DNA of 64,000 nucleotides from Nocardia nova SH22a (GTDB lineage Bacteria > Actinomycetota > Actinomycetes > Mycobacteriales > Mycobacteriaceae): contig NZ_CP006850.1 of assembly GCF_000523235.1 (NCBI RefSeq), forward strand, positions 3,100,001-3,164,000. Direction: 5' to 3'. The position numbers were made by a program, and so were the translations under genes. Position 1 is the stretch's first letter, and the number at the start of each line of letters is the position of its first letter. Of this stretch, positions 37,079-50,705 are shown piece by piece. Under the pieces are notes generated by a model. It saw only the letters and a list, made by a program, of their open reading frames with translations. It was not told the DNA's origin and did not search any database.

Positions 37079-37151
37079 TCCTCACATGTTCAATGCTCGT
37101 CATGCCGGCGGGGAGCGCGGCAGGCGGGCCGGCGAGACAAGGTGGTGTCGC

Positions 37152-38756
37152 GTGCCTTCTGTATCGGCGCATCCCGGCATTCGACCGGCACGACCCGAAA
37201 TCGCGTCGGCATGGTTACGGTCGCGGCTCAACGGCCTGGACGAAAACGTCAAACCTCGGTACGACCCGGACGCGATCGTCGACTCCGGTCTGACCCGGGC
37301 GGCACGCCCCGTGCTCGAACGAGCCACGGCCGAACTCGAGGGCACCTCGGTCACCCTGCTGCTCGCCGACCGTTCCGCTCGCGTGGTCGATATCCAGTGC
37401 GCGGATCGGACGACATTGCGCGGAGTCGCGGATCTCGGTGTGGTGCCGGGGATCCGGCTCGCCGAGGACGAGGTGGGCGCCAATGCGGTGGGCACCCCGA
37501 TCGAGACCCGGCAGGGGCTGCTCGTGGAAGGGGCCGAACATTTCATGGCGGCCTTCCAGGGGTTCACCTGCTACGGGCATCCGATCGTCAATCCGGTCAC
37601 CCGCAGGCTCGAGGGCGTCCTCGACATCAGTGGCCGCGCCGGTGACGACCACCGGCTGTTCCCGCCCTTCGCCCGGCGGGTGGTGCGCGATATCGAAGAC
37701 CGCCTGCACCTGGACGCCTCACAGTCACAGCGGCAGCTGCTGAACGCCTTCCAGACGGCGGCGACCCGCCGGAAACGGGCGGTCGTCGCGGTCGGTCACG
37801 GCCTGGTCCTGGCCACCCCCGCCGCCTTGGACCTGCTCGAACCCGCCGATCACGCGGCTCTGCGCATGTGCGTGGAGGGCACCCGTTTCGCCGGTGAGGC
37901 GACCCATCGGCTCACGCTGGTCTCCGGGCGCACCGTCCGATTGCGCTGTGTGCCGGTCGACGACGACCGCGGGATGCTGGTCGACATCATCCCGGAGCAG
38001 GACATCCGCCGCGGCACGCGCCCGGCCGCGCGCTCGCTGGGCTGGCCGCTGCTGGTGGTCGGCGAATTGGGCAGCGGCCGCACCACCGCCGCCCGGGAGG
38101 CCGCGGGGGCGGACGCGGCGGAGATCGACGCCACCGAAATCGTGCGGCTGGGGGAGCAGACCTGGGCCGCCGACACCGAACGCGTCCTCGGCAGTGCGGG
38201 ACCGGCGGCCGTCGTGGAGAACGTCCAGCTGCTGTCGGAGCAGATGACGACACTGCTGGCCCGGTATCTGCGCGACGCGCAGCGCCAGGTCGTGCTCACC
38301 TCGACGCCGGGCGATCACCTCGACGGCGTGCACGCGCCGCTGGCGGTGCTGTGCAACGGCAGGCAGGAACTGCTGCCGCTGCGGCGCCGCCGCCACGAGA
38401 TCCCGCAACTGGCACAGCATCTGCTCTCCGACGTGCGTCCGGGCGGGCGCACCCGCTTGACCGCCGAGACGCTGCGCATCTTGGCCGAACAGCCGTGGCC
38501 GGGCAATCTGGCGGAGTTGCAGCGCGTGATCGCGGCCGTCGCCGAGCTGCGGTCGGCGGGCGACATCATTCCCTCGGATCTCCCTGCCTCGCATCGTGAT
38601 CGGCACGCACCGGCGTCGCCGTTCCGGCAGGCCGAGCGGGAGATCATCGTCGCGGCCCTGGAAGCCGCCGGAGGAAATCGGCTGCAGGCGGCGCGGGCGC
38701 TGGGAGTCAGCCGCTCCACTCTCTACAACCGGCTGCGTGCCCTGCACATCGACTGA
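37152..38756 (+). CDS. GAF domain/Fis-type regulator, AcoR-like, with degenerate AAA+ domain
   Basis: 534 residues from GTG 37152; ATG 37086 in the same frame is possible. Order: GAF domain (about residues 45-175), an AAA+ remnant with GELGSGRTT in place of Walker A, no recognisable Walker B and no GAFTGA loop, the PWPGNLAEL block, and a Fis helix-turn-helix NRLQAARALGVSRSTLYNRL at the end. Such proteins resemble sigma54 activators but occur in actinobacteria that lack sigma54, where they act with ordinary sigma factors. The gene is flanked on both sides by TGTCCA-N6-TGGACA palindromes, its probable sites. Confidence 0.9.
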   Translation: MPSVSAHPGIRPARPEIASAWLRSRLNGLDENVKPRYDPDAIVDSGLTRAARPVLERATAELEGTSVTLLLADRSARVVDIQCADRTTLRGVADLGVVPGIRLAEDEVGANAVGTPIETRQGLLVEGAEHFMAAFQGFTCYGHPIVNPVTRRLEGVLDISGRAGDDHRLFPPFARRVVRDIEDRLHLDASQSQRQLLNAFQTAATRRKRAVVAVGHGLVLATPAALDLLEPADHAALRMCVEGTRFAGEATHRLTLVSGRTVRLRCVPVDDDRGMLVDIIPEQDIRRGTRPAARSLGWPLLVVGELGSGRTTAAREAAGADAAEIDATEIVRLGEQTWAADTERVLGSAGPAAVVENVQLLSEQMTTLLARYLRDAQRQVVLTSTPGDHLDGVHAPLAVLCNGRQELLPLRRRRHEIPQLAQHLLSDVRPGGRTRLTAETLRILAEQPWPGNLAELQRVIAAVAELRSAGDIIPSDLPASHRDRHAPASPFRQAEREIIVAALEAAGGNRLQAARALGVSRSTLYNRLRALHID

Positions 38757-43491: not shown

Positions 43492-44163
43492 TCAGCCTAC
43501 TACGAGAGCATCCATCAAATCAGTCAGATGGGTGATCACGGCCCCTGGGCCATAGTCGGCAAAGCGATCGACCTTCTCTGGTCGGTTGGCGAAAGCTATC
43601 GATGTAACTTGCGCGGCATGGGCGGCCTGGATATCAGTTGTTGAATCGCCAACGAAAACAGTCTGTTTGACGTTAGTGCCTAACGCTTGCATCGCCAAAT
43701 CCAACAGGTATGGACCGGGCTTAAACTTGTCGAGGTTGGCAGGCGTTCGGGCGAAGATCCCGGCAATATCGTCGCGCAGGTTGTAGCGGTCAAGGTACGC
43801 GGAGATGGACTCCGCGGAATTGTTGCTGACGACGGCAACGGAGTATCCGCGCCTTGACGCGTACCGGATTAGCTCGGCTCCATCCGGAGTTTGAGATGAT
43901 TGGGCCACCGCTTCCAATTCGATCCGCGTGAAGGCGCGTTCGATGCGTGTGGCAGTCGCCGGACCGAGCCCACGCGCGTATTCGAGAACGTCGAACGGAT
44001 CTGTTGTCTCGGAAATGACTGGCGGCAACGGCGTATCCAGCTGGCTCCCAAGGTGTTCGACGGCATCGCGACTGGTGAGTCCAGAGAAGACCGCGCAGAT
44101 CGGGCCGTCGAAATCGAGCAGTAGGCAAGTGCGAGCGGTCAGTAGGTCGGTCAGCGTGCTCAC
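43492..44163 (-). CDS. HAD family hydrolase
   Basis: 223 residues from GTG 44163, overlapping the GntR stop by 3 bases. HAD motifs: nucleophile DFDGP near residue 17, VSNNSAESI near 120, KPGPYLLDLAM and VGDSTTDIQAA near 165-185. It resembles phosphoglycolate-phosphatase-like enzymes; substrate unknown. Pairs with the upstream GntR regulator. GC content is visibly lower than in the flanking catabolic genes. Confidence 0.88.
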   Translation of the reverse strand: MSTLTDLLTARTCLLLDFDGPICAVFSGLTSRDAVEHLGSQLDTPLPPVISETTDPFDVLEYARGLGPATATRIERAFTRIELEAVAQSSQTPDGAELIRYASRRGYSVAVVSNNSAESISAYLDRYNLRDDIAGIFARTPANLDKFKPGPYLLDLAMQALGTNVKQTVFVGDSTTDIQAAHAAQVTSIAFANRPEKVDRFADYGPGAVITHLTDLMDALVVG

Positions 44164-45047
44164 GGTCGGTAGTCCTTGGCGACCGAATTCCAGAGGCTGG
44201 TGAACCACAGTTGGGATTGGCTGACGAACCGACTGGCCTTCGAGTCGGGATCGGCTTCGCTCGCGTGGTGGAACAGGGTTGTGTCTTTGCCCATCAGATC
44301 CCAGATCGCGACGCTGTCACCGTCGAGTTCGAGCTTATGCTCTCGGACCGGGCAATAGCCGAAGAATGCTTGTTCGCCGTTGAGGATGTATAGCTTGAAC
44401 AGTGGTATCGACGGAAAAGTTCGAACCTGAGCCGTTGCGCTCGACACGAGACCGAGGGACGCCAGCTCGTGAACTGTGTCGACTATCGCGAGACTATGCC
44501 GTTCCATGATGCGGTTTGCGCGTTTCCGAAAAGCCGGACTGTCACTGAGGTCGTCCGTGCGGGATGGCAGGTGCCGAGGAATCGAATCGTCGGGGACGAG
44601 GAGTCGGACTGCCAACGAATCAGGACGGAGCCTGCCTTCCCGAATTCGGTCGAGAGGCTCTGAAATCGCGCCGTGCGGTGTCTCACCGGACAACCCGGCG
44701 AAGTCGATGGTCACATTCCGAGCCTCGAAGCTTCGTTCGATGTGTGGTCGGAGCCCAACCGGGCGCTCGGTTCGTTCGCGGACGAAGACGCCAGATCCTT
44801 TGCGCGAGACGACGAGTCCCTGCTCACGGAGGATGCGAATCGCTTGCTCTGCCGTTGCTTTCGCAACGCCGTAGCGCTGAACAATTTGCGGTCCCGATGG
44901 CAGTTTCGCGCCTGGTGTGAGCTTCCGCGTGAGTATCGCCGCCCGAAGGATGCTGGCGATCTGTTGCGACGGTGGGCGGGGATCGTCCGGGTCTAGGGCA
45001 TCCACCTCGCGAGTGTAGGCGATAGGCCAGAAGCCCCCAGCCTTCAC
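44160..45047 (-). CDS. GntR family transcriptional regulator (HutC-like)
   Basis: 295 residues from ATG 45047. N-terminal winged helix: PSQQIASILRAAILTRKLTPGAKLPSGPQIVQRYGVAKATAEQAIR. The C-terminal part (LRPHIERSFEARNVTI, VHELASLGLVSSATAQVRTFPS) is not a clear UTRA domain and may be element-specific. Two copies of the palindromic core CTCCCTAGG(GAG) lie just upstream, so it probably represses itself and the HAD gene. Comparable GntR/HAD pairs occur on actinobacterial mobile elements. Confidence 0.82.
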   Translation of the reverse strand: MKAGGFWPIAYTREVDALDPDDPRPPSQQIASILRAAILTRKLTPGAKLPSGPQIVQRYGVAKATAEQAIRILREQGLVVSRKGSGVFVRERTERPVGLRPHIERSFEARNVTIDFAGLSGETPHGAISEPLDRIREGRLRPDSLAVRLLVPDDSIPRHLPSRTDDLSDSPAFRKRANRIMERHSLAIVDTVHELASLGLVSSATAQVRTFPSIPLFKLYILNGEQAFFGYCPVREHKLELDGDSVAIWDLMGKDTTLFHHASEADPDSKASRFVSQSQLWFTSLWNSVAKDYRP

Positions 45048-45527: not shown

Positions 45528-45678
45528 CTGGGCGATCGGGCCGCCTACCGCGGAGCGGCTGCTGAATACTGCCGAGCGGAAGCTTGGCATGGCCAGGGGT
45601 GTTTGGAAGACGTTGCGGGAGCGAGGGGTTGAGATGCGGCCAGCGAACCGTACAAATGCAGAGCATCGGGAGGAGTGA
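45463..45678 (+). CDS. Small protein with recombinase-type HTH tail
   Basis: 71 residues from GTG 45463 (GGAGG upstream), overlapping the decayed gene. The C-terminal part, RKLGMARGVWKTLRERGVEM followed by RPANRT, resembles the DNA-binding helix-turn-helix of serine recombinases. A related sequence recurs at 48082-48222. It ends 19 bases before the reverse transcriptase, so it may be the first gene of that operon or a leftover of the degraded neighbour. Function unknown. Confidence 0.45.
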   Translation: MKILQEAACRCGTRPMAEDEIDWAIGPPTAERLLNTAERKLGMARGVWKTLRERGVEMRPANRTNAEHREE

Positions 45679-45697: not shown

Positions 45698-47308
45698 GTG
45701 GATGTGATAGGTGAACTGGACCTGGAAGAGTCGTTGCGGCGGGAACTCGCGTCCCACAATCGCTTGCTGCCGCCGCGTTGGGACCACGTGGCATTTGGCC
45801 GCGATGTCGCTGGTGTGCACAAATGGCTTAGTTCGAGCATCCAGCGGTCGGGATGGGGAGGTCGCGCCGACACCGTCTTTGCGGACAAAGGCGCCAAAGG
45901 TTCTCGACCGCTGAGTGTCATGTCTCTGCAAGACCGCGTAGTCTATCGAGCATTGGTAGCGAGGCTGGAGGGGCTACTTCCGGATGAGTTGCGGCAGCGA
46001 GAACCGTTTTCTGACTTTAGTAGCGCACCAACTCGTGTCCAAAGTGCCCGTTACGTTACCTCCATGGATGTGTCTTCGTACTACGTGTATGTCGATCATG
46101 ATCTCCTCGTCGACGAGTTGACGGCACAGACGGGCGATGCTCTCACTGTCGGAGCTCTGACTGAACTGCTCCATAAGGTGATGGGACGCAGGATCGGTTT
46201 GCCGCAGGTAAGTTCGGTATCGGACACTCTCGGCGATACGCATCTTGATCGGGTACGTCGTCGACTCGTCCGTAAAGGTTTTACAGTGTCGAGGTACGCT
46301 GACGACTTCCGGGTCGTATCCGATTCTCTCGGTAGCGCCCGACAGGCGGTGGAGGAATGTGCAACAGAGCTTTACACCCTTGGTTTGGTATTAAATGACG
46401 AAAAGACGCTCACATATGGCATTAACACCTATCGTACCTCGCTGAAGCGGTTCGCTACTGCCGAGCGTGAGCTGTTCGTCGATGACGATCATGGTGACGA
46501 TGAGCTGCGGACTCTGATGAGGGGCGGATACCTAGATGATCACTTTGACCTTGAGGGGGCAGCATCAGAAAACGATGGCGAGATCGATGATGAGACCGAC
46601 GGGAGCCCGCCGACCCTCGGCGATGCTCCTGCGTCTAGTGGAATCGATGACATTGAGGCAATCCAATCAGATACCGTCGATGTTACTCGGGAACTGACGG
46701 AGGCTCAAACTCAAGCAGCGCATCGTGCGTGGGATATATGGACAATGCGAGAGTCGAGAAGTCGCAGAGACTCTGCAGTAATTCGAACGTTGCTGCATCG
46801 AGCGTTGCCGATTCTAGGTGCGGCCGGTGACACTGTTCCACTGTCTTCGCTACTGCGGGTTGTCAGTACTGAGCCGGGGTTGACGCCGCAATTAGCGCAG
46901 TACTTCGGGGCGCTGCCGGAAAAGGAGCAGCGGCAAAAGGCGCGTGCCGCACTTGACGAGTTGTTGTCTGATGACTCCCCTCCGCTGAGCACTTGGCAGA
47001 AGATGTGGATCGCGCACTCTATAGGCGAAATGAAGCGACTTCGGCAACGGCCTGGAAGCTCACAACGTCGTTACATGGAATGGCTCATCGAATGTTTAGC
47101 TTCCGAGCATCCGGGGCTTGTTGCTACTGCTGCTGCAAGCCTTGGGAAGATTCGAGCTGGCGAAACAGAGATGCTTGCCGCGGCATTCGATCGTGTCGGT
47201 CCGCAATGGCGCTCACTGGTTCTTTGGGGTCTGGCAAGGTTGGATATGACCAAGGCTCAATCTTGCGCGGACAGCGCACTTGACAGGATCATGCTGGAGA
47301 ACATGTGA
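45698..47308 (+). CDS. Reverse transcriptase of the Abi/UG (defence-type) class
   Basis: 536 residues from GTG 45698. RT fingers-palm motifs are complete: GSRPLSVMSLQDRVVYRAL (motif 2), YVTSMDVSSYYVYVD (motif A, Asp124), GLPQVSSVSDTLGD (motif B-like, with GLPQ), SRYADDFRVV (YADD at 200-203) and LGLVLNDEKT. An acidic linker (about 255-325) is followed by a roughly 200-residue all-helical domain (LSTWQKMWIAHSIGEMKRLR, then HPGLVATAAASLGKIR), HEAT-like. No maturase, endonuclease or integrase domain is attached, and no retron or group II intron signature was noticed. The downstream HEPN gene overlaps by 4 bases. Together they resemble abortive-infection RTs. Confidence 0.88.
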   Translation: MDVIGELDLEESLRRELASHNRLLPPRWDHVAFGRDVAGVHKWLSSSIQRSGWGGRADTVFADKGAKGSRPLSVMSLQDRVVYRALVARLEGLLPDELRQREPFSDFSSAPTRVQSARYVTSMDVSSYYVYVDHDLLVDELTAQTGDALTVGALTELLHKVMGRRIGLPQVSSVSDTLGDTHLDRVRRRLVRKGFTVSRYADDFRVVSDSLGSARQAVEECATELYTLGLVLNDEKTLTYGINTYRTSLKRFATAERELFVDDDHGDDELRTLMRGGYLDDHFDLEGAASENDGEIDDETDGSPPTLGDAPASSGIDDIEAIQSDTVDVTRELTEAQTQAAHRAWDIWTMRESRSRRDSAVIRTLLHRALPILGAAGDTVPLSSLLRVVSTEPGLTPQLAQYFGALPEKEQRQKARAALDELLSDDSPPLSTWQKMWIAHSIGEMKRLRQRPGSSQRRYMEWLIECLASEHPGLVATAAASLGKIRAGETEMLAAAFDRVGPQWRSLVLWGLARLDMTKAQSCADSALDRIMLENM

Positions 47309-47907
47309 GAAGAGTGGTCAGTCAACGCGCAGAGGACTCTTGCCGACTGCTAAACGAGACGCTAGCCGCACACCAGGCCTCGATTCATGCGTTGCGCCGT
47401 GACGACCATGGGAGTCGCTTGGAAAGCGGTGTGGACAGAGAACGTATGCAACACCACGCTGCCTTGGTGCGGCTGATGTCGATCACAGAAGCATTTGCCG
47501 TGGATCTGCTCGCTGAATCGGTGGAAGCGTGGGCTTCTAGCGCCGAAGTCGAGGTACAAACAGTTTGGCGGACCACAGTAGAGAGCGCCCTTATGAGCTG
47601 GCCGAAGATTAAGGAAGCCTACGCGAAGTGGCTAAAAGCCGGTCCTCCGGTCATAAACTGGGATCCAGTTCTCGGTTTTGTTGAAGCTAGAAATGCGGTG
47701 GCGCATGGCCTCGGGAATTTGACACGCCTGCAACGGAAAAATCGATCAAAGACAATAAGTACACTCGGCCACGGGAAAATAAAACTAGACGCCGCCGACG
47801 CGGTCGAACTCGATGAGGTAGTATTGAAAAGAGCGGCCGATGAATGTCGAATGTTCATCGAGACGTTGGATGCTGTTGTGCAGTTTGCGCCGCTCTCTTC
47901 GGGGTGA
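47305..47907 (+). CDS. HEPN-domain protein coupled to the reverse transcriptase
   Basis: 200 residues from GTG 47305 in a GTGA overlap with the RT stop. An all-helical protein with FVEARNAVAHGLGNLT, the R-N-x3-H catalytic signature of HEPN ribonucleases (Arg129, Asn130, His134). The N-terminal half has a long helical region (MQHHAALVRLMSITEAFAVDLLAE). HEPN proteins act as RNA-cleaving toxins in toxin-antitoxin, CRISPR and Abi systems. AbiA carries a HEPN domain fused to its RT; here the HEPN part is a separate gene. A hairpin follows 25 bases after the stop. Confidence 0.82.
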   Translation: MRRVVSQRAEDSCRLLNETLAAHQASIHALRRDDHGSRLESGVDRERMQHHAALVRLMSITEAFAVDLLAESVEAWASSAEVEVQTVWRTTVESALMSWPKIKEAYAKWLKAGPPVINWDPVLGFVEARNAVAHGLGNLTRLQRKNRSKTISTLGHGKIKLDAADAVELDEVVLKRAADECRMFIETLDAVVQFAPLSSG

Positions 47908-48081: not shown

Positions 48082-48222
48082 CGTTCGACCTCGGCGATTG
48101 GACTCTATAACGAAGGGCAGTCATTGAATAATATCGCGCAACAAACCGGGAGATTAAAAGGTAGAGTCTGGAGCGCCTTGCATGATCGAGGCGTGTCAAT
48201 ACGCCCAGCAACATGCTGTTGA
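48082..48222 (+). pseudogene. Fragment with recombinase-type HTH, second copy
   Basis: 46 codons without an obvious start: TSAIGLYNEGQSLNNIAQQT followed by GRLKGRVWSALHDRGVSIRP, ending TAG... at the TGA of 48220-48222. The pattern VW-x2-LxxRGVxxRPA matches the small HTH protein at 45463-45678. Together they flank the RT-HEPN pair and look like remains of one gene family. Confidence 0.5.
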
Positions 48223-48261: not shown

Positions 48262-48286
48262 GCTCGCCGCACAAAGTGCGGAGCTA
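48262..48286 (-). terminator. Terminator-like hairpin at the 3' end of the Mrr-like gene
   Basis: CCGCAC-AAA-GTGCGG (48267-48281) extended by GCTC/AGC pairing, overlapping the stop of the endonuclease-like gene on the minus strand. Confidence 0.55.
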
Positions 48287-49918
48287 TCTTAGTTCGAACG
48301 AACGAATTAAATGCGCACGCTCATCCAGCAGAAGCTCTAACCTGGCATCATTCCAAACTTCAATACTCGGTCGCTGACCTTTTGAGTTTTGCCTCTCGAT
48401 CCAGGTGACAGCGTCCGAGGTGAAGCGGCCACTTGTCGCGATCACGAGTACGTCGAAAGGTGGATCCTGCCAATGGTCAAGGCTCACGATCGCTGAGGCT
48501 ACGTCAACGTCACGTACTGCACGAGTTGTCCAATGCTTGCATTGTATCGCGACTCGCTGCGCACTGTGACCGCTGAGCGGATCATGCCGGAGGCGGATAG
48601 CGCTGACATCTCGTCCATGATCAGGCGCATTGGTATGCATTAGCCAATCGACATTCTCATACCCCTCTGTCTCAGCTACCAGTTGGAAGATCAGACGCTC
48701 AAAAGTATCTGCTTCGATACTTTTCCATGCGATTTCCAGGCCTGCACGTCTCGCGGGCAATTCGATTGGAGAGTATGTCATCGGATCATCAATCCGCAGA
48801 GCGCGCGAGAAGAGAATGTGTGACACTGTGGAGACTGGTAGCTTCGGGTCTCTCTGGTATGTGCTTATTTTCCATCCATCGGTATATGCTCGGTTAATTT
48901 CGGCAGAAATCCTTGTTATTGCACTATTGGCTGCCTGTTTAGCTGAAACCCTCTCCCTTAGGTAGTATGCTGCGCTCTCTTTTGCGGCTCGCCAGATAAA
49001 ATAATACATCTGCCCGATTGAGTACCATTTCAGACCACGACGGAATACATCATTTGTCTTGGGGCCCGGCTTGAAGATTAAGTTATGCCTATAGAGCATG
49101 TGCACCAGGTACGCTTTGCATTCTGATACAGCGACATCCAACCAGAATCCGTGGAACTGGTCGACCCACTTCTCGGGCCAGTAGTCGCGATAGACTACGT
49201 CGGAAAAACTCTGGCGAAACTCGCTCACTTGAGATTCGAGTGTGCCCGGACCCGGTATGTAATACGAAGCACGCGTTGGGTAGTAGCTGTCAGAAAGTAT
49301 GCCGGTTGGGTCCCACGTGAAACTGTCGGCTGACGACGAAGGATGGATCCGAATGGCTTTCTTGTGAATGAGCTGTTTCAGTAAGTCGAAGTCAAAGTCG
49401 GCTGTGGGAGTTAGTGGATCGATGCGCTCATCTATCGGTTCACTAACTCCTCTATAAAGCTCCTCTGCATCTTCGAACAGTGCGACCAATGTGAAGGCTA
49501 GATGCATATCCAGCTCTTCTGCGTGCGGTACCTGCGCGGCAGAAATTATTGGGTAGCGCTCAGCTATCGAATCGCGAGCCGCCGCTATTTCCATCTCCTG
49601 TTGCTGCGCTTGACGACGACGCTCAGCATCGGCGCATTCCGGGCATCGGCTAGTTTGAAGTCGCGAGCTAGAGGACCAATCCGATCGCGTTCTGTAGATA
49701 AACCCCTCTCCGCATTCGTTGCAGTACCTGCTCGTGGATCGGGCGGTGGAAAGATCGGAAACAAGCCTGCTGACTTTATGCGCGGGAAGCTCGAAAGCCC
49801 CTGCTATTGACTTTACCGTGTGCGCGAAGGAGCCGTCCTCGTTCGTTTCCCAGTACATTCGACAAAGATCGGCGAGCTGCTCAGCTTCTGAATCTATCTC
49901 GACTTCAAACTCTGACAC
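48284..49918 (-). CDS. Zinc-ribbon/Mrr-like restriction endonuclease
   Basis: 544 residues from GTG 49918 (GGAG 8 bases upstream; an in-frame TTG lies at 49933). Residues 66-95 hold a zinc ribbon (CNEC...CPEC). The middle is unique, rich in aromatic residues (YYFIWRAAKESAAYYLRERV), with no assigned fold. Residues about 406-544 form an Mrr/PD-(D/E)xK endonuclease domain: GRDVSAIR (Asp437), VAIQCKHW (QxK, 459-461) and VLVIATSGRFTSDAVTWIER. Enzymes of this class cut foreign or modified DNA. Encoded next to the RT-HEPN pair on the opposite strand, in low-GC sequence. Probably a stand-alone defence gene. Confidence 0.82.
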   Translation of the reverse strand: MSEFEVEIDSEAEQLADLCRMYWETNEDGSFAHTVKSIAGAFELPAHKVSRLVSDLSTARSTSRYCNECGEGFIYRTRSDWSSSSRLQTSRCPECADAERRRQAQQQEMEIAAARDSIAERYPIISAAQVPHAEELDMHLAFTLVALFEDAEELYRGVSEPIDERIDPLTPTADFDFDLLKQLIHKKAIRIHPSSSADSFTWDPTGILSDSYYPTRASYYIPGPGTLESQVSEFRQSFSDVVYRDYWPEKWVDQFHGFWLDVAVSECKAYLVHMLYRHNLIFKPGPKTNDVFRRGLKWYSIGQMYYFIWRAAKESAAYYLRERVSAKQAANSAITRISAEINRAYTDGWKISTYQRDPKLPVSTVSHILFSRALRIDDPMTYSPIELPARRAGLEIAWKSIEADTFERLIFQLVAETEGYENVDWLMHTNAPDHGRDVSAIRLRHDPLSGHSAQRVAIQCKHWTTRAVRDVDVASAIVSLDHWQDPPFDVLVIATSGRFTSDAVTWIERQNSKGQRPSIEVWNDARLELLLDERAHLIRSFELR

Positions 49919-50590
49919 GAGAGAACTCCGCAATCCGATAGCCCGACGATATGTAAGTAAAGCGCAGCATCAGCTCTGGCGGAACTCTCTGCAAGGAAGA
50001 TGAAATCATGTTAACGCCGAAGGGTTGGATTAGGTATTCGGTGATATGTGGCTGAAGGGCTGTCGGCGATCGTCTTCGTGTGTGCAGGGCATACAATCGG
50101 GTCAACTTGGCGATATATGCGAAAAACATCGGCGACTGCTGAGTGCTTAGCATTTAAAATCTGCAAACCGAACCGCTGCCACGGTCAGCTGCAGAGTGGG
50201 CTGCCGCTGCCACCCGCTCCATGGTTTACACGTCATGCTAAGCTCCGTCCCCGCGGTTGGGCTGCTTCTCGCTACAGCCGTTCGAACCAGGTATAGCAGA
50301 GCGGGACGACATAACTACAGGGCGACACTCATGCAAGAGCACGGGGCAAAAGTCACATGTTCTAAACTCCATGTGCTCAAGTTCGCAACTGGTACGCCAG
50401 AATATAGCTGGCGCAGGCAGATCGGCGGTCGATGGTTCAAGTAACGTCTGCGAAGGCGAGCCTAGTAGACAGTCGAACGACCGAACGCTATCTGTATCCG
50501 GATCGCCGGGAGGTCGCCGGCGCGGGGCGGCAAGCTCTCGAAGCATCTGTGGTCCCGTTCTGGTCCCGCTCTTCGTTGTAGGTTGAAAAG
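49919..50590. other. Lower-GC intergenic stretch without a convincing gene
   Basis: About 670 bases. Several short open frames on both strands lack family similarity, coding bias and ribosome sites. It lies between the endonuclease-like gene and tRNA-Pro and probably holds degraded junction sequence of the island. The only structures noticed are a tandem GGTCCCG repeat (50551-50572) and the tRNA terminator. Confidence 0.55.
50551..50572. repeat. Tandem 11-bp repeat next to tRNA-Pro
   Basis: GGTCCCGTTCT then GGTCCCGCTCT, 60 bases from the tRNA 3' end. Short direct repeats beside tRNA 3' ends can be integrase arm-type sites, but no integrase is visible. Confidence 0.4.
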
Positions 50591-50624: not shown

Positions 50625-50631
50625 CCATCTG

Positions 50632-50705
<74 letters not shown>

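Follow-up and report, generated by a model that had tools for sequence, protein, structure and literature searches.

Two overlapping genes of Nocardia nova SH22a encode a reverse transcriptase (RT) of the UG22 type and a separate HEPN-fold protein. The pair is real and conserved, but it is no new category: judged from the two proteins it is a member of a catalogued candidate family, the UG22 DRT, and nothing essential sets it apart. New are the survey of the linkage between both genes, the structural correspondence of the RT to AbiA without its HEPN domain, and an invariant tyrosine in the linker of the RT. We consider it very likely that the UG22 pair has an antiphage role.

The gene pair

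The pair lies in a stretch of 64,000 nucleotides (NZ_CP006850.1, positions 3,100,001 to 3,164,000), hereafter the window, in which all coordinates are given. The RT gene (45698..47308, forward strand) has a GTG start and encodes 536 amino acids; it is the sole RVT_1 match in the 8.35-Mb genome and exceeds the Pfam cut-off. An initial sequence-only reading described an RT with intact YADD and GLPQ motifs, an acidic linker and a helical C-terminal region, and all of these were recovered. The RT domain (residues ~1-260) contains the catalytic residues D124, D202 and D203, with the motif Y200-A-D-D203 at 46295..46306 (+) and GLPQ at residues 167-170. It is followed by a linker (~261-334), much of which is predicted to be poorly ordered and which is strongly acidic (25 D/E against 3 K/R in 79 residues), and by a helical-repeat domain (~335-536) that is borne out by the predicted structure. 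The linker holds a single tyrosine, Y278 (codon 46529..46531, +), which is invariant among the aligned UG22 RTs and is a candidate DNA-priming residue.

The stop codon of the RT gene and the start codon of the HEPN gene share the four nucleotides GTGA (47305..47308, +). This overlap, also seen in the initial reading, is of the kind met in translational coupling. The HEPN gene (47305..47907, +; GTG start) encodes a protein of 200 amino acids that matches the PADLOC profile RTasHEPN and is a probable RNase partner of the RT. The motif R-N-A-V-A-H, which the initial reading gave for a separate HEPN-type protein, is found at residues 129-134 (47689..47706, +) and has the form R-X4-H.

Family assignment

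Using the PADLOC-DB 2.0 profiles, the RT is matched by RT_UG22 (PDLC03760) with an E value of 4e-148 and 492 bits over residues 2-535 of 536. This is the best of all UG models, in agreement with a UG-type RT; the runner-up is UG21 (102.6 bits), and UG17 (DRT10) is among the weaker neighbours. The second ORF is matched by RTasHEPN (PDLC03820; E 8e-37, 124.6 bits), a name that we read as RT-associated HEPN. Both profiles are filed under DRT in PADLOC-DB 2.0 (2023). The sequence-only reading had proposed a new Abi/DRT layout, with a search of defence-system profiles as a check. Although the pair falls outside DRT1-DRT10, the check recognised both proteins, and since models for both exist already, the claim of a new layout does not hold.

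Several other assignments were considered and rejected. A placement among group II intron or retron RTs, named beforehand as contrary evidence, is far from the observed scores: the RT obtains 61.1 bits with the group II intron model TIGR04416 (cut-off 300) and 16.8 bits with the RT model of St85, the sole retron family modelled (cut-off 235). No intron RNA was found at the Rfam gathering score in the region 43-51 kb. For Drt2, Drt3a, Drt3b, Drt4 and Drt5 (NCBIfam) the RT remains far under each curated cut-off. A fusion of RT and HEPN as in AbiA was rejected likewise: the two are separate ORFs, and the longest of 53 RT relatives obtained by protein search (the window's own included) counts 607 amino acids, in a search that admitted proteins up to ~938 amino acids and in which the 7998 candidates with the most words in common were scored. 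In the literature searched we found no experimental study of UG22 or RTasHEPN, and in excerpts of PMC8934634, PMC13174585 and PMC13092281 no comparable RT/HEPN pair is described except AbiA.

Conservation of the RT-HEPN linkage

Conservation was evaluated on 28 distinct UG22 loci (the window, L002-L010, L012-L016, L076-L079, L090 and L092-L099). Left out were L011, where the contig ends inside the RT, and L091, judged to be the same locus as L014 from identical scores and translation; the close copies L007/L076 (genes ~89% identical) and L092/L095 (95-97%) were counted separately. RT_UG22 is the best PADLOC model for all RTs taken from 16 other loci (16/16). The co-occurrence of both genes is largely upheld: 25 of the 28 loci have a HEPN gene, and L015, L079 and L097 lack one. 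Absence of the HEPN gene beside related RTs had been named beforehand as contrary evidence, and is observed in part. Directly downstream of the RT in L015 lies an ORF that by eye resembles a transposase, and the RTs of L079 and L097 are divergent, with HGDD in place of [YF]xDD; these two perhaps form a separate subfamily with another partner. In L092 the RT gene is broken by an insertion of ~1.5 kb with the HEPN gene beyond it, the uninterrupted near-identical copy being L095, in another genome. At all 17 loci measured the two genes overlap by 4-19 nt, with HEPN start codons of our own choice; in the public annotation of L077 the HEPN start lies later, without overlap.

The two proteins also diverge in parallel: RT and HEPN distances correlate with r 0.94 (17 pairs; Mantel p 0.0001) and with 0.90 for 13 core pairs. 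Losses of the catalytic aspartates or of the HEPN arginine and histidine, which would have spoken against the module, were not seen in these loci. The catalytic DD is kept at 28/28 loci, D124, D202 and D203 are invariant in 40/40 aligned UG22 RTs, and RN-x3-H followed by [LF]T-x2-Q is found in 25/25 HEPN genes at UG22 loci. Ten HEPN-type proteins were scored with RTasHEPN: the eight beside an RT reach E 9e-24 or better, and the two others (L100 and L102) 8e-10 and 5e-7. Three weak RTasHEPN relatives (L072, L073 and L074, corresponding to L100-L102; E ~2e-6 to 2.5e-9) carry RNFIVH or RNALVH and show no RT match in the surrounding stretches examined.

UG22 is rare. It was detected in 3 of 396 genomes of a phylum sample (E 1e-30) and in 11 of 397 genomes of an order sample, both counts including the source genome. 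Within the genus, the best RT_UG22 match in 23 further genomes has E 1e-13 and covers part of the model only; such weak, partial matches fit a horizontal gain. In 72,556 plasmid records there are two HEPN matches, both beside UG22 RTs of Rhodococcus. One locus (L016) is situated on a 4.2-kb contig of a Bacillota MAG, so that the pair may extend beyond actinomycetes, a misbinned contig being possible as well. Origin from a phage gene was rejected: the HEPN protein has no match in 50,697 phage records, and a pattern-based scan of viral contigs gave one weak RT match.

Structural comparison and the linker tyrosine

The predicted RT structure matches DRT6, DRT4, AbiA and AbiK over its full length. 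With AbiA, the alignment covers AbiA residues 1-477 and stops where the fused HEPN domain of AbiA begins. Like AbiA of Lactococcus, a Class 1 UG/Abi RT, the UG22 pair combines an RT, a flexible linker with a conserved tyrosine, a helical domain and a HEPN domain. The differences are that the HEPN domain of AbiA is fused in the same chain whereas that of UG22 is a separate gene, that the motif is R-X6-H in AbiA against R-X4-H in UG22, and that, in the excerpts of PMC11077055, the AbiA domain has no detected RNase activity and its motif is dispensable. DRT4 (UG15) and DRT6 are the best structural matches across both RT domains, yet the identity is ~13% and both are described, in the available part of PMC13213688, as single-gene systems without a partner. 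DRT10 (UG17, with an ncRNA and SLATT) resembles UG22 in having an RT with a co-encoded and co-evolving putative effector (PMC12632851, in part); it differs in its use of an ncRNA, none being apparent at UG22, and in its effector, which is SLATT and not HEPN.

The MNT partner in HEPN-MNT toxin-antitoxin pairs is a nucleotidyltransferase. The second protein of the UG22 pair has a predicted HEPN fold, and its model is matched best by proteins of such pairs; in contrast to the SO_3166-SO_3165 type, however, its partner is an RT. Neither Foldseek with the HEPN protein nor a search of PDB sequences with its profile gave anything informative.

A tyrosine occupies the Y278 column in 40/40 aligned UG22 RTs (100%, against a median conservation of 0.35 over residues 261-340), including 17/17 representatives under 60% identity, and 36 of the 40 have no other tyrosine in the linker. 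Among the 28 genomic loci, read from their linker sequences, 25 have this tyrosine; the exceptions are L079 and L097, which have no HEPN gene, and L099, which has one and whose linker is very short. In AbiA the loop between the RT and the helical domain carries Tyr298 and Tyr303, each able to prime DNA; of the two, Tyr298 is conserved, and defence is much weaker in Y298F (excerpts of PMC11077055). Because the equivalent loop of AbiA carries priming tyrosines, Y278 is predicted to be the priming residue of UG22, and on this analogy it is somewhat more probable than otherwise that it primes DNA synthesis.

Search for an ncRNA template

Conserved flanking DNA was looked for in five pairs of loci (L002/L090, L002/L003, L003/L090, L076/L077 and L095/L098) with ~67-75% nucleotide identity over the genes. 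In a comparison run without a positive control, these pairs show no alignable DNA within 600 nt upstream and none downstream except an annotated gene. This exception is seen in L007, L076 and L077, whose shared downstream stretch coincides with a convergent gene that is annotated for L076 and L077. When gene starts are included, only ~15-25 nt ahead of the start codon are alike between L077 and either L007 or L076. The few matches of 18-20 nt between other loci look like chance. The pairs L007/L076 and L092/L095 are uninformative here, because they are near-identical and align throughout.

Space for an ncRNA is also limited at some loci. In L076 the end of the HEPN gene overlaps the convergent gene and the gap between the RT and an upstream kinase gene measures 170 nt, and in L012 an ORF recognised by eye as MutM-like ends 55 nt upstream of the RT. 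At Rfam gathering scores the region 43-51 kb of the window yields only a tRNA. None of these comparisons points to an ncRNA template, and the UG22 RT probably works without a dedicated one.

Proposed mechanism and alternatives

According to published excerpts, Class 1 UG/Abi RTs perform protein-primed untemplated synthesis whereas Class 2 RTs copy ncRNAs (PMC12632851), DRT4 makes random, template-independent ssDNA, which a phage protein stabilises (PMC13213688), and the template-free DNA adduct in DRT1 serves to assemble the effector domain and at the same time keeps it in check (PMC13275509). By analogy with these systems, and with the class of UG22 argued from structure alone, UG22 would most likely attach DNA to Y278, and this adduct would control the HEPN protein. 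An RT of AbiA/DRT4/DRT6-like architecture would begin DNA synthesis on its own linker residue Y278, probably without a dedicated ncRNA template, and the DNA would remain covalently attached to the RT. The co-translated HEPN protein with its conserved R-X4-H site would be the effector, which the RT-DNA complex may either keep inactive or license. Phage infection would then alter the DNA product or the complex, upon which HEPN would cut RNA and phage growth would be stopped. The analysis shows the gene pair, its conservation, the motifs and the predicted folds; we infer protein priming and template independence from relatives, and the phage trigger, the direction of control and the RNA target enter as conjecture only.

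In its general form, an AbiA-like, protein-primed DNA polymerase that controls a separate HEPN RNase, we give this two-gene module about an even chance. The full version is more tentative and falls short of probable: UG22 would be an AbiA divided over two chains, and its covalent RT-DNA adduct, primed on Y278 of the flexible acidic linker, would as sensor or antitoxin gate a separately encoded, active HEPN RNase independently of an ncRNA. The RT would then act as a DNA-synthesising switch for an RNase effector.

The main rival is a structural HEPN protein, which would dimerise or scaffold the polymerase without any need for R-X4-H, while untemplated DNA blocks the phage as in DRT4. AbiA offers a precedent: it dimerises through its HEPN domain, loses polymerase activity when this domain is removed and still defends when R/H are mutated (excerpts of PMC11077055); moreover, ssDNA made by DRT4 builds up to toxic levels under the protection of a phage protein (PMC13213688, in part), and the UG22 RT matches both AbiA and DRT4 over both domains. 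Nonetheless we regard this explanation as unlikely, given that the UG22 HEPN protein is a separate chain and that R, N and H are invariant in all 25 genes, at loci with RTs down to 23% identity, which exceeds our expectation for a purely structural role. Such invariance speaks for catalysis by HEPN, though it is no proof, and in our judgement catalysis is likely to be needed.

It might also be argued that UG22 behaves like Class 2, with an ncRNA near or inside the operon as template for repetitive cDNA and HEPN as effector, as proposed for SLATT in DRT10. UG17 (DRT10) is indeed among the weaker PADLOC neighbours of UG22, and DRT10 couples RT and ncRNA to a co-encoded effector (PMC12632851, in part). 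The unalignable flanks (in the comparison without positive control), the little space left in L076 and L012, and a C-terminal domain that structurally matches the Abi/DRT4/DRT6 type make this distinctly improbable. Still less credible is an addiction or maintenance system in which HEPN is a toxin, countered by the RT or its DNA as antitoxin, and whose main task is to retain plasmids and islands, with defence secondary. The best matches of the HEPN model among HEPN-MNT proteins and the two loci on Rhodococcus plasmids would suit it, whereas some other UG22 loci have defence-type genes in their flanks (counted without a background rate) and the window neighbours scanned contain no match to a nucleotidyltransferase model.

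For UG22 as a whole, the conserved pair with its invariant catalytic sites and linker tyrosine yields three simple point-mutant predictions. If the preferred reading of a catalytic, DNA-gated HEPN is correct, it would suggest the original purpose of HEPN in AbiA-type RTs, and an RNase effector would be added to the DNA-making immune enzymes.

Genomic context

As the sequence-only reading had it, the pair lies in a stretch of lower GC content (~0.50-0.62 per interval between 43 and 50.5 kb, compared with 0.64-0.72 for 36-43 kb and 0.61-0.71 for 51-60 kb) and has an Mrr-like neighbour. The latter is an Mrr_cat gene of 549 amino acids (48284-49933, minus strand; PF04471 E 1.4e-9, with a weak PADLOC match to PDC-M58A, E 8e-10). 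Of the neighbours scanned, it alone is clearly defence-like. The reported tRNA is present as well, a tRNA-Pro (50631-50705, minus strand), but it does not adjoin the pair: it starts 2.7 kb past the HEPN gene, beyond the Mrr gene. Integration targeted to this tRNA is not supported, because most genus genomes, among the matches listed, align with the tRNA plus some bases on both sides, often on the island side.

Left of the pair are a GntR-type gene (44160-45047) and a HAD gene, and further away a 556-aa ORF (37086-38756) that is matched in part by a CARF-type regulator model. The Mrr and HAD genes were rejected as conserved parts of the module, as the 27 other loci contain no match to either at E 0.01. 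Mostly weak GntR matches recur at 5 of these 27 (L003, L007, L015, L076 and L096), and GntR was left out of the module. A kinase gene comes after the GntR gene in L076 and L077. The GntR genes may be functional here or simply widespread plasmid cargo.

Among 83 flanking ORFs from 21 loci at least two match HmaA/DrmD-type helicase models (best 25 of 97 families), and there are single matches to pPIWI_RE and to DUF4194, which we take to be a Wadjet component (best 25 of 70 families). These counts, which have no background rate, lend weak support to a defence role.

The search for repeats around the module gave nothing informative. Two HTH-like tail scraps of the same orientation (45532-45645 and 48094-48210) lie on either side of the module. 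When 48 amino acids of the downstream scrap were searched against the genome, only this scrap itself was returned and not the upstream one, and neither has plasmid matches. Both end in RGV..RPA, are recombinase-like by eye and share 41% identity over 39 amino acids; they are a possible trace of the module's arrival.
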